DNA of 32,433 bases. It comes from Pseudomonadota bacterium. Lineage in GTDB: Bacteria; Pseudomonadota; Gammaproteobacteria; Acidithiobacillales; Acidithiobacillaceae. Below are positions 27,328 through 32,433 of the stretch, piece by piece (positions within the stretch are counted from its first letter, which is position 1; every line of letters starts with the position of its first letter). The position numbers and the translations under genes are program-made. The stretch is from positions 1-32,433 of the forward strand of contig JAKAVW010000002.1 of assembly GCA_021827445.1 (NCBI GenBank). Reading direction: 5' to 3'. The notes below the pieces were generated by a model. The model was given only the letters and a program-made list of their open reading frames with translations. It searched no databases and was not told the DNA's origin.

Positions 27328-28356
27328 TCAGCCATTATTCCACAAAGAATGATCCCTTTTGAGGAACTCGTCATATGGAATATAGTGAGAGCAATCGGAG
27401 GAAAATGTCAATCCTACTGTACCGTTAAAGATATTGATCGATCCAGAGCGAAGATAAAACATTCCTTTCATGAGTCTCAACGTTCGCAAATTACTCAATA
27501 TAGCCCGAATCTCTTGGTGGGTTACCACAGTTCCGTCTGGATAGGAGCGCTTGGGATACGCCAAACAAATAGCCGGATCAATTAGTTCTTCCATGGTCAG
27601 CAGACGATACCGATACGGATCATCCATCACCCAAAGTATGGCCTGGCTGCTGGAGAAATGCAGAATTACATGATACACCCCATGTACGAGTATCAATTCT
27701 TCCACCACACTAAGCACGGTATCCAGATGCCGATCCATTTTGCTTTCCGAGCGCATCTTCGTAACGACCGTATCTGAAATGAACGGGTCTCCTTCGAACC
27801 GCCGGGAATACCGGGGCTCTTCGTATATTTCGCCTGGCTGAGGCAAGTCCCTCAAAGCAAAATCGGCACCTATGAAACCGAGAAGCATTCCGTCACTGTC
27901 ACGTACAAATTGGACAGCGGTTAATGACGGCCGTAGCGCCCGCAGACTGATGTAAGCTTCGCATAACAGAAAATCGACAGCTTGGACGCCTTCTCGGATG
28001 TAGGGCCATTGCTGATACTGCGCCTCGCGATTTTTGTCAGAATACTCGGCGGCCAGCAAGGCTTCTCTGGTGTACGGCCGGTCTGATCGATCCCGGCCAA
28101 AGTGCTCGCCGAGCAGACCTTCACGGCTGATGTTGGACGTTATCTGCACTCCACCGGTGTCCAACGCATATAGAAATTTACAGTGCGGCACAGTGGAGAA
28201 GGCCTCGTTCAATGCAGCCTCCATTTTCGGACGGTCACCCCACACATGACTGCATGCATCCGCCAGGTGTCGCAACGGGTCGTACAGCAACCCGGTAAGC
28301 AACGCACGTTGCTGAAATACCCGTCTGGGCAGAGAAGAGTCTTCGTGCGTACTCAT
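27328..28356 (-). CDS. PDC/Cache-like sensor-domain protein encoded downstream of dabA
   Basis: CKFLYALDTGGVQITSNISREGLLGEHFGRDRSDRPYTREAL resembles PDC/dCache sensory cores (…D..G.QIS.N…GRDRS.RPY…). No TM helix, kinase, GGDEF or HTH seen. Confidence 0.75.
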   Translation of the reverse strand: MSTHEDSSLPRRVFQQRALLTGLLYDPLRHLADACSHVWGDRPKMEAALNEAFSTVPHCKFLYALDTGGVQITSNISREGLLGEHFGRDRSDRPYTREALLAAEYSDKNREAQYQQWPYIREGVQAVDFLLCEAYISLRALRPSLTAVQFVRDSDGMLLGFIGADFALRDLPQPGEIYEEPRYSRRFEGDPFISDTVVTKMRSESKMDRHLDTVLSVVEELILVHGVYHVILHFSSSQAILWVMDDPYRYRLLTMEELIDPAICLAYPKRSYPDGTVVTHQEIRAILSNLRTLRLMKGMFYLRSGSINIFNGTVGLTFSSDCSHYIPYDEFLKRDHSLWNNG

Positions 28357-28483
28357 AAAAAAGTACCCTCCATGGTTGCTGGTCTCTCCCGCCGACGTTG
28401 GTCAGATCTCCCACACATGGCTTCCATATTTCCTCCAATGGCCATCTCGGGCGAGTTCTTGGTGCGCAATGCAGCAGGATTTT

Positions 28484-30958
28484 TCACGTCATCCGTTGCC
28501 ACTGCTTGTCGAATACGCGTCGATAAACACTTCCAGCATCATCGATTTGGAAGAGATAAAGCCAACCATTATCCACCAGTTCTCGGACGAGAGCGTGGCG
28601 GGAAATGACGCTTTCCATCTCCGCCTGTGGTGCCTCAATCAACACGTTGAGACGGACCGGTTCATGGACCCAACGATTACCGTCGTGCAGAGACTGCAAG
28701 GCAAACCCGACACGCAAGTCCCCTCCATTCCCCTCAAGAACGCCGATAGATCCCCCAACGACATTATGTAGCACTTTATTGCCACTACCGAAACGCAAAT
28801 TGTCTACCATGGAGCCGTAGTATTGCATATTGATCCAGTTTGCCACCACCATGGGTGCGGTCATAATCAATTCCAATGTGGAGAAGCCCGCGTCTTTTTG
28901 CCAGTCATAATCATGCAAAAAAGCCCTACCCTCCAAATCAACACCCCTTGTCCTCTGGCGGGGTGCCGCAATAAAAGCGGCGTTGCCAGCTAGTGCCCAT
29001 TCAGGTCTGACCTCGGCCCAGTCCCGAGTGCGTCGTTGCATATCGCGCGTGACTACATCAGGAGCTTGAGAGGCCGTACCCAGCAGGGTGGCGCGCTCCA
29101 TCCGCGTAAGTGCCCCAGCATCGGCCAACCATTGGCGGAGTTGCGCCAGATCTTTGGCGTGTGTTGCCGGCAAATCCTGCGTATCGAAGAGCATCACTTC
29201 ATCTGTTGTGGTGTCATGCAATCCGGCGATAAAATAGGTATCTTCCGGAATTCTGAGCCCTTTCTCTTCAAGACCTCGACGGGTTGCCGGATCGTTTAGC
29301 AAGGTTACCGCAATCCTGGCACTGGCTTCTCCCGTCTGTCCGGCGCAAGCGCCGCAATCGAGTCCAGTCCCCTGCGGATTATTGACCGTAGTGCTGCCAT
29401 GGCCCGCCAACAAGATCAGGCGTGCGAATGTCTGCGTCAGCCCCATGTTTTTTAGAATGAATTCACCGACCCCCGCCCGCTCACCCTCTGGAATTCCGGT
29501 GCTTTTCGCACTGGATTTACAGTTACCACTAGCGACCAACTGTGGGCGCAGTCTCTGTTTCATCTCAATATTAAGGCCCCTTTCGTCTGGATGGGGTACG
29601 GTGCGGGTCCAACCCATGCTGTCACCGAAAAGCTTCGGGGCATATAGCAATCCGGTGGCTTCTACAAAGGTGAAAGTCGACACCGCTGATGTTTTGAAAC
29701 TCTTCCAGGCGGTGGCTACCCGGAGATGCAATTGCCTTTTTGCGACCTGCCGTTGCGTTTCATCCTCGCCCGCATGACTCAGGTCCTCGCACACCCGATA
29801 AGGAGGATTGAAAATGACAGGGAGATGCCCTTTAGGCGCATTTGCACCGAACGGAACGTACTCCATGAGCACGCCAAAGAAGCCCGCAAACCCCAAGGTT
29901 TGAATGCCTGGTGCCACTGTTTCTAGCGCTCGTCGGATGATTTCGGAACGTACGTCTATGCAAAACGCAGCCTGCACCACAGGTCGCTCAGTGGCCGCAT
30001 TGGTTGACTTCGATGCTTTTAGTGATTTAAACAATGAACGCTGATAGCCGATCTCCAGTGCGGTCTGCAAAATGGCATCAACGTGCTCCGACGGTTTTCC
30101 TGTCGCCCTATTTTGTTGGGTGTGCAGCATCAGGCGCCATTGCTTTTGTACGGCGATATCGGCGCAGGTCTTGTGAAGAATGGCATCCCAACACACGCGG
30201 ACGGCGAGGAGATCGCGCAAGGAATGGTTGGTCTCCCCCTTCAACTCGGCCTGCCAACGCACATATCTAGCCCAACCCGCCCAGCCTCCGATACTCAGGA
30301 GTGCTGCAAAGAGATAATCATCAATCAGATCGAACGGGACGGAGAGTTCCTTCAGAGCCCAGGCAACGGCTGTTTCAGGGGCTGCCGGGAGTGCAGCTGT
30401 AGCCTCTCCAATCCCGCGCAAACCAATCATCCGCGGGCTCTTGTCGAAATGCATGAACTTTAACCAGCCCTGATACAGAGGGCCATCGCGCCACGGCATG
30501 CTCCATGCGGCCTGCCCCTCATCAAAGTAAGCTGCGCAATATTGGCTAATCCTTTCCACAACGAAGCCCGGCCAATCCCGATGATCGTCAGCAAATATGG
30601 CATCCGCGAAGACTGGGAATGGCACATTTCGGCTTGCCGATCGTTGTTTCATCGCCTGCTTGAGCTGGGTCACATCCCAAATACTGTGCATCTCCTGCAG
30701 TGCCGCGTTCAAATCCTCTTGGGTGATCCGTCCGTTGGCGATCTGTTCTTCATAATATGGCCGTGGCATTGTCAGCCCTTCGCCGGTCATCTTGCGAAGC
30801 GTCTGATCCGCTTGCCAGAAAGGTTGATCGCGCAACCCAAAGTAGGGATTTACCGCAACAAAGTGCTTGAGCGGCCAGAGGGGAGCAATTCTCTGGCAGG
30901 CGCCTTCAATGTTCGCTTTGATGTCCTGATGCGGGGCGGATGTCTCTGGTGCTTTCAT
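28484..30958 (-). CDS. dabA: Inorganic carbon transporter subunit DabA (DUF2309/UPF0753)
   Basis: IAPLWPLKHFVAVNPYFGLRDQPFW, CIDVRSEIIRRALE, GFAGFFGV, HGSTTVNNPQGTGLDCGACAGQTGEASARI, FIAGLHDTTTDEV. Confidence 0.95.
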   Translation of the reverse strand: MKAPETSAPHQDIKANIEGACQRIAPLWPLKHFVAVNPYFGLRDQPFWQADQTLRKMTGEGLTMPRPYYEEQIANGRITQEDLNAALQEMHSIWDVTQLKQAMKQRSASRNVPFPVFADAIFADDHRDWPGFVVERISQYCAAYFDEGQAAWSMPWRDGPLYQGWLKFMHFDKSPRMIGLRGIGEATAALPAAPETAVAWALKELSVPFDLIDDYLFAALLSIGGWAGWARYVRWQAELKGETNHSLRDLLAVRVCWDAILHKTCADIAVQKQWRLMLHTQQNRATGKPSEHVDAILQTALEIGYQRSLFKSLKASKSTNAATERPVVQAAFCIDVRSEIIRRALETVAPGIQTLGFAGFFGVLMEYVPFGANAPKGHLPVIFNPPYRVCEDLSHAGEDETQRQVAKRQLHLRVATAWKSFKTSAVSTFTFVEATGLLYAPKLFGDSMGWTRTVPHPDERGLNIEMKQRLRPQLVASGNCKSSAKSTGIPEGERAGVGEFILKNMGLTQTFARLILLAGHGSTTVNNPQGTGLDCGACAGQTGEASARIAVTLLNDPATRRGLEEKGLRIPEDTYFIAGLHDTTTDEVMLFDTQDLPATHAKDLAQLRQWLADAGALTRMERATLLGTASQAPDVVTRDMQRRTRDWAEVRPEWALAGNAAFIAAPRQRTRGVDLEGRAFLHDYDWQKDAGFSTLELIMTAPMVVANWINMQYYGSMVDNLRFGSGNKVLHNVVGGSIGVLEGNGGDLRVGFALQSLHDGNRWVHEPVRLNVLIEAPQAEMESVISRHALVRELVDNGWLYLFQIDDAGSVYRRVFDKQWQRMT

Positions 30959-30960
30959 GT

Positions 30961-32433
30961 CTACTCCTCCGGGAACTGAACTTGTGGATTTGCCGCATCC
31001 AGTGTTTTCCCTCTCTTCGATGCGTGAAGAAAGGCCATCTGGCTAAAAACCAGATCAACATACAGTCCATTGTATAGGTCCACATATACGGCCTGCCAAA
31101 AAGGCGACTTCTGCAGACGGGGTAAAAGTTGCTGAATGTGTAACAAGGAAAGAAAAGCCACGACGATAAGCGCCAGTAACCAGCTTGGAATATGATCAGC
31201 CTGCACGGTATCACTGGGAATGCTGGTTCCCAGCAAGTCGGTAGACAGATCATGCAGCCCAAAATAGGCTGAACAGACAATGATGCTTAACAGCGCCACT
31301 CGCGAAAACAAGGTGCCGGCACCGACCCCAGACCTATTCATGGCTTGCAGCAGGAGCTGGCCCATCGCAATGGCGACGATGACGCCGATCGTCAGCAAAG
31401 TGGGCTGCTTTTGCAAATCAATGCCAAATGCCATGGCAACCCCAAAGGTGACTAGCCCTGATATAAGAATTGCCAATTCCGCGCGTCCGAGCGTTTGTTT
31501 AGTATTGAGCTTCTGGATCGTCGGCCCACGGAAATTGTCTACCACGCTTCCGGAAGACAGGAACGCATGCGCCTTATAGACGGAGTGGGCGACAATATGG
31601 AGTACGGCTATACTGTACAAACCTAAACCGCATTCCATAAGCATGAAACCCAATTGCGCAGAAGTGGAATACGCCAGTGATTCTTTGATATTAGTTTCCG
31701 TCATCATCATGAGAGATGCCACTGTCGCAGATAAAAGCCCCGCGAGAATGAGTACGGTCCAGGCCCAACTTACGTGGGTGATCATGGGACTGACACGCAA
31801 GAGCAGGAATGCCCCGGTATAAATGAGTCCCGCATGTAATAGCGCCGAAACCTGTGTGGGAGCCTCCATAACCTGAATAAGCCAACCCTGCAGCGGGAAT
31901 GTCCCGCTCTTTAAAATTGCACAGAGCACAATCAGGCCCGTTGCAATCTGCAAGCTTGCAGGAAGACTGCCGTGCCACGCGTGCATCCACTGTGCGATCC
32001 CTGAAAAGCCTGTCCTTCCGGTGGTCCGTGCCATCAGCAGAAAAGCAGTGAAAAGGCTCACGTCGGCGATGCGCGAAAACAAATATTTTTTGCGTGCGGC
32101 TATCACGGCGAGCGGACGTTCGCGATAGAATATCAATAACTCATGTAAAAACAGGCTGGCGGCGATAAATGAAATCCAGAATCCCCAGCTATTATCTGTC
32201 ACAATCAGCACTAGAAATGCGCCAACCGTCAGACTCAGCCACCTGTGAAAGCGTCCCTCATGAGCATCCCCTACCATATACGTGGCGGAGTATCGAGAGA
32301 CAATCATTCCCATAAAGGAGACCAACGTGAACATGACGAGCGTCAATGGATTAACCAGCGTTCGGACGGCAAATGAACCTAATTTCCAAGGCAGATGGGT
32401 CGACAGATAGGTCTGTGAATGCTGTATTATCGT
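30961..32433 (-). CDS. dabB: Inorganic carbon transporter subunit DabB (NuoL/MrpA-like proton-conducting membrane protein), 5' end outside the window
   Basis: NuoL/MrpA-like core LKSGTFPLQGWLIQVMEAPTQVSALLHAGLIYTGAFLLLR, TNIKESLAYSTSAQLGFMLMECGLG, HIVAHSVYKAHAFLSSGSVV. Hand translation upstream of the track start stays open to 32433 (...WKLGSFAVRTLVNPLTLVMFTLVSFMG). Confidence 0.92.
   Translation of the reverse strand, partial: TIIQHSQTYLSTHLPWKLGSFAVRTLVNPLTLVMFTLVSFMGMIVSRYSATYMVGDAHEGRFHRWLSLTVGAFLVLIVTDNSWGFWISFIAASLFLHELLIFYRERPLAVIAARKKYLFSRIADVSLFTAFLLMARTTGRTGFSGIAQWMHAWHGSLPASLQIATGLIVLCAILKSGTFPLQGWLIQVMEAPTQVSALLHAGLIYTGAFLLLRVSPMITHVSWAWTVLILAGLLSATVASLMMMTETNIKESLAYSTSAQLGFMLMECGLGLYSIAVLHIVAHSVYKAHAFLSSGSVVDNFRGPTIQKLNTKQTLGRAELAILISGLVTFGVAMAFGIDLQKQPTLLTIGVIVAIAMGQLLLQAMNRSGVGAGTLFSRVALLSIIVCSAYFGLHDLSTDLLGTSIPSDTVQADHIPSWLLALIVVAFLSLLHIQQLLPRLQKSPFWQAVYVDLYNGLYVDLVFSQMAFLHASKRGKTLDAANPQVQFPEE

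Follow-up and report, generated by a model that had tools for sequence, protein, structure and literature searches.

The gene that follows dabBA in this genome encodes a protein with a Cache fold at its N-terminus and a separate C-terminal domain, a domain that is widespread in Gammaproteobacteria and strongly associated there with RuBisCO. In the reading that we favour, which is plausible, though unproven, and falls a little short of probable, the protein belongs to a family of soluble sensors with which autotrophs detect metabolites, and one branch of this family acts on the DabAB transporter. The window, that is, the whole stretch of 32,433 nucleotides that was analysed, is placed in the genus Acidithiobacillus, near A. 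ferrivorans, because the closest relatives of the sensor protein come from an Acidithiobacillus MAG (97%), A. ferrivorans (94%), and A. ferruginosus (90%). The features of the locus are as follows.

27328..28356, minus strand: sensor-like gene, 342 aa, Cache domain and C-terminal domain
27331..27750, minus strand: C-terminal domain, residues 203–342, presumed output (model pLDDT 91, pTM 0.87)
27733..27792, minus strand: conserved linker, residues 189–208, family consensus GDPSIRxT...R.ES.MD
27847..28335, minus strand: single Cache/PDC domain, residues 8–170, with a long N-terminal helix (profile and fold matches)
27976..28056, minus strand: insert of ~25 residues (about 101–127), D...E..YQQWP (alignment, G007 and G479 sequences, tree)
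28353..28427, minus strand: short 24-codon ORF, strong ribosome site GGAGGAAATATG (GGAGG)
28484..30958, minus strand: dabA (Pfam DabA PF10070, 3.1e-284)
30961..32433, minus strand: dabB (Proton_antipo_M, 3.7e-35), 2 nt upstream of dabA

An earlier note on this DNA had described a 342-residue reading frame at 27328–28356, on the same strand as dabBA and 127 nt from dabA, which is confirmed here, with the peptide that it quoted present in the translation. The genes dabB, dabA, and sensor lie in this order on a single strand, the 5' end of dabB falling past the window limit, where the contig end cuts the gene and overlaps contig C53. The sensor gene is a true coding gene, since its substitutions relative to four close species fall mostly in the third codon position (13/7/58 changes by codon position against A. 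ferrivorans, with 54 synonymous and 19 non-synonymous codons), and since a peptide search recovers 45 homologous loci in sequenced genomes. No terminator-like site was found in the 127-nt gap between dabA and the sensor gene, and promoter-like sites around this region do not rise above chance level. The stop codon of the 24-codon ORF overlaps the ATG of the sensor gene (ATGA), and four further Acidithiobacillus genomes preserve its frame, with a single length difference of 3 nt (23–24 codons across the five genomes), the ORF being absent from A. ferruginosus and Ferrovum among the compared loci. This ORF could be a leader whose translation is coupled to that of the sensor; its conservation is not proof of coding, the compared species being too similar. 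The contig that continues past the right end of the window (G000:C53, L101) carries a second, divergent dabB-dabA-DUF6671 cluster, in which the dabA frame aligns with just the initial third of the family and is apparently truncated.

An intact sensor gene adjoins dabA in eight Acidithiobacillaceae genomes of two genera, and all intact copies detected in this family of bacteria are the next gene after dabA (the source genome G000, G002, G009, G011, G013, G014, G007, and G479, the last from the other genus), with the order LysR-dabB-dabA-sensor in G007, a dabA split by an insertion in G002, and a longer dabA-sensor gap of about 0.8 kb in A. ferruginosus (G009). In Ferrovum, the sensor gene comes about 2–4 kb after dabA, separated from it by DUF6671 and a LysR gene. 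The 11 dab-linked sequences, from Acidithiobacillaceae and Ferrovum, group into a single clade (100/100 support) and require one change on the tree, and this linkage has outlasted deep divergence, since the DabA proteins of the clade have diverged to 44–57% identity. All dab-linked members, and only those, carry the YQQWP insert, which is modelled with low confidence. In none of the homologue-bearing genomes and 78 class-sampled carriers did an intact member from outside the clade turn up within 2 kb of dabA; the nearest case in the class sample was G587, with dabA about 3 kb away on the opposite strand. The dab neighbourhood of intact sensor genes is a property of one clade. Decayed remnants also lie behind dabA: G012 retains an N-terminal piece, and G026 has a copy with a frameshift. 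The latter is likely a second, independent dab association, because it lacks the insert and is closest to another branch.

The earlier note had proposed a Cache sensor linked to dab and a survey of dab loci for it. The conserved dabB-dabA-sensor order, recurring in Acidithiobacillaceae and Ferrovum, bears this out, but a sensor specific to dab is rejected for the family as a whole, with DabA present in only 21 of 43 genomes from the homologue search and 28 of 78 class-sampled carriers (36–49%). Nor does the sensor occur wherever dabA does: most dabA loci in the same order, 15 or more of those compared, lack it, so that the note's own refuting condition, absence from other dab loci, is borne out by half. 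Being neighbours does not by itself establish a functional tie, and the clade may have inherited its dab link from one ancestral event.

Several observations concern the dab loci themselves. In one close relative (L003:4796-9872), dabA is interrupted by a 555-aa frame inserted into it, the sensor gene behind it being intact. In acidophiles, dabA is often followed by DUF6671 and a second unknown gene, as an alternative or in addition to the sensor gene (loci of the DUF6671 type being L006:7161-8656, L090, L091, L092, and L101), and a LysR gene flanks several dab loci. The och operon of Leptospirillum comprises NuoL-like and DUF2309 genes, which were shown to share a transcript with two more genes and to respond to chromate by induction (PMC9080137); going by its description in the parts of that source consulted, where it is not named DabAB, the pair corresponds to dabBA, and the unnamed third gene of the operon may be either the sensor gene or DUF6671. 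In the literature searched, no description of DabAB regulation was found.

Whilst the dab linkage is confined to one clade, the C-terminal domain is present in 105 of 369 genomes drawn evenly from the class. Of the 79 genomes with a long-frame match, 72 have RuBisCO, compared with 115 of the 290 others; long-frame matches were defined by frame length, so that a few may carry another sensor. When one genome was taken per family (138 families), RuBisCO was present in 42 of 44 domain carriers and 33 of 94 non-carriers (Fisher p about 3e-12, uncorrected for deeper phylogeny), and among the genomes bearing homologues in the peptide search it was present in 40 of 43. The domain is not strictly a RuBisCO trait, since three genomes of another class in the phylum sample carry it without RuBisCO. 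The neighbourhoods of family members outside the dab clade are very mixed, with no common neighbour found (the most frequent family, NYN, accounts for 3 of 62 neighbours).

The strong RuBisCO association without DabA, these mixed neighbourhoods, and the single clade that accounts for all intact dab-linked cases would suit the main rival to an action on DabAB, in which the protein senses metabolites or redox state in the cytosol of chemolithoautotrophs generally and has a target unrelated to DabAB, its place behind dabA in one clade going back to a founder event and being retained through shared transcription. This is a serious possibility, if on balance a rather improbable one, with the persistence of the dab linkage at a DabA identity of 44%, across two genera and Ferrovum, the clade-specific insert, and the decayed member of another branch that also lies behind dabA all arguing against it. 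If the sensor does act on DabAB, as we favour, the family would serve autotrophic (RuBisCO) metabolism generally, and in one clade the gene would have become fixed behind dabBA, probably co-transcribed with it, where the sensor would most likely adjust the activity, assembly, or expression of DabAB, perhaps via the YQQWP insert. A bolder form of this proposal, in which the family is a new class of cytosolic metabolite sensors dedicated to autotrophs, its output domain is new and works with interchangeable sensors, and in the acidophile clade the insert binds DabA or DabB to gate the uptake of inorganic carbon in response to a Calvin-cycle metabolite, is speculative and unlikely. A widespread, undescribed domain that is coupled to a sensor and found mainly in RuBisCO-bearing Gammaproteobacteria offers a direct handle on how carbon uptake and fixation are matched to metabolic state, with the dab-linked clade providing a testable partner.

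The PDC/Cache-like core recognised in the earlier note is borne out by both profile and fold comparisons. The dCache_1 family is matched by 26 of 44 family members (best 9.2e-8), the window protein alone falling below the dCache_1 threshold with no Pfam match, and the family profile matches the PDC domains of KinD (6e-4) and PctA (4e-3) in the PDB. A Foldseek search with the protein model (pLDDT 83.7, pTM 0.84, with a helix at residues 8–37) returned KinD, DctB, Tlp3, and PctA among its matches, with 22 at E ≤ 0.001. Archease, matched in the PDB at E 1.1, was rejected as chance; the viral fold library gave no match at E ≤ 0.001, and PADLOC and plasmid searches gave no result.

Just seven residues stand ahead of the first helix of the sensor protein, and the most hydrophobic 19-mer (1.76, starting at residue 214) lies inside the folded C-terminal domain, where a short helix is followed by a strand. 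From hydropathy and the model we read the protein as having no membrane segment, with no candidate outside the folded C-terminal domain for the flanking transmembrane segments typical of extracellular Cache receptors. Domain profile searches of the sensor protein and its family found no kinase, GGDEF, EAL, MCP, or HTH domain. These results agree with the earlier note, which had seen no transmembrane segment, kinase, GGDEF, or methyl-accepting domain, and the sensor is apparently a cytosolic, single PDC unit without a membrane anchor. The note's remark that a stand-alone cytoplasmic Cache domain is unusual stands in that soluble Cache domains are uncommon, but YkuI_C and Diacid_rec provide precedents (PMC4822843).

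The sensor has in common with the dCache_1/PDC domains of PctA, KinD, and DctB the PDC fold with its long N-terminal helix, together with conserved RP-aromatic and Y positions of the pocket. In contrast to these proteins, the sensor appears soluble, comprises a single PDC unit, and lacks a kinase, GGDEF, or chemotaxis output. YkuI of Bacillus subtilis (EAL and YkuI_C) likewise contains a Cache-type domain, from a family that is principally intracellular (PMC4822843), and is matched by Foldseek at 4.8e-4. However, YkuI has an EAL domain, which is not found in the sensor family, where the Cache domain comes first and is followed by an unrelated partner domain, and the YkuI_C profile matches only 3 of 44 members (best 0.061).

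The amino-acid-binding dCache_1AA motif of PctA consists of Y121, R126, W128, Y129, Y144, and D173 (PMC10104139). These positions were mapped onto the sensor via the profile alignment, with the numbering offset being that of the present analysis. R126 and Y144 correspond to R93 and Y135 of the sensor, each present in 44 of 44 members, and the W128 position is occupied by a tyrosine (Y95) in all 44. The D173 position corresponds to D165, kept in 32 of 44 members and replaced by Tyr in the other 12, with the Y121 position occupied by Arg and the Y129 position mostly by Met or Leu. A dCache_1AA amino-acid sensor was rejected, because Y121 and Y129 are not retained, W128 is replaced by Tyr, and D173 is only partially kept. 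The retention of Arg at the carboxylate-binding position suggests an acidic small ligand. We propose that the protein is a soluble small-molecule sensor, probably dimeric, whose Cache domain would bind a small metabolite, probably one that bears a carboxylate or other anionic group. The Tyr at the D173-equivalent position in 12 of 44 members, together with the lack of a known ligand, would also fit a scaffold or assembly factor in which the Cache domain is a ligand-free dimerisation element, however the invariance of R93, Y95, and Y135 in 44 of 44 members goes beyond the needs of a pure scaffold, and we consider this role very unlikely.

The Cache domain is followed by a linker in which G189, I193, R202, S205, and D208 are invariant in all 44 members, and in which residues 192–201 are modelled with a pLDDT below 50. 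This invariance, combined with low model confidence, fits a hinge or contact segment. For residues ~200–342, to which the earlier note could assign no fold, prediction yields a separate and confidently modelled domain at 203–342, composed of a helix and three strands, twice. With the one search program used, the best PDB fold match had an E of 0.1, short of the 0.001 cut-off, and on this basis we claim no new fold; the domain belongs to no Pfam family.

A second protein of the source genome (G000:C270, L002:901-2082, 393 aa) has the same linker (GDPSMRET...R.ES..D) and C-terminal domain, with 31% identity to the sensor over residues 187–264, however its sensor half is a cyclic-nucleotide-binding domain instead (cNMP_binding, PF00027, 3.8e-21). 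Since the linker is retained while the sensor is exchanged between Cache and cNMP_binding, the C-terminal domain is most simply read as an output module to which different sensors can be attached. In the proposed mechanism, the GDP-S-I-R linker would signal to the C-terminal domain what state the sensor is in, and that domain would act through contact with another protein. A regulator of gene expression, in which the ligand-bound Cache domain controls the C-terminal domain through an unrecognised capacity of the latter to bind nucleic acid or RNA polymerase at dab or cbb promoters, could draw on the resemblance of the cyclic-nucleotide-binding relative to Crp-type sensors at its N-terminus, however it is very unlikely, with neither a helix-turn-helix nor any other family or fold that binds DNA found in the C-terminal domain, and with the LysR gene that flanks several dab loci able to fill such a role.

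Short frames of only about 165–250 aa that contain the C-terminal domain also occur. The gene of the cyclic-nucleotide-binding protein (L102:7424-13332) directly precedes a two-partner secretion pair (ShlB-type and TPS domains). Additionally, the source genome encodes another Cache protein (G000:C370, L124:9381-10394), which has hydrophobic C-terminal segments and relatives in other members of the class, and whose gene lies near genes judged, on reading their sequences, to be PrkA-like.
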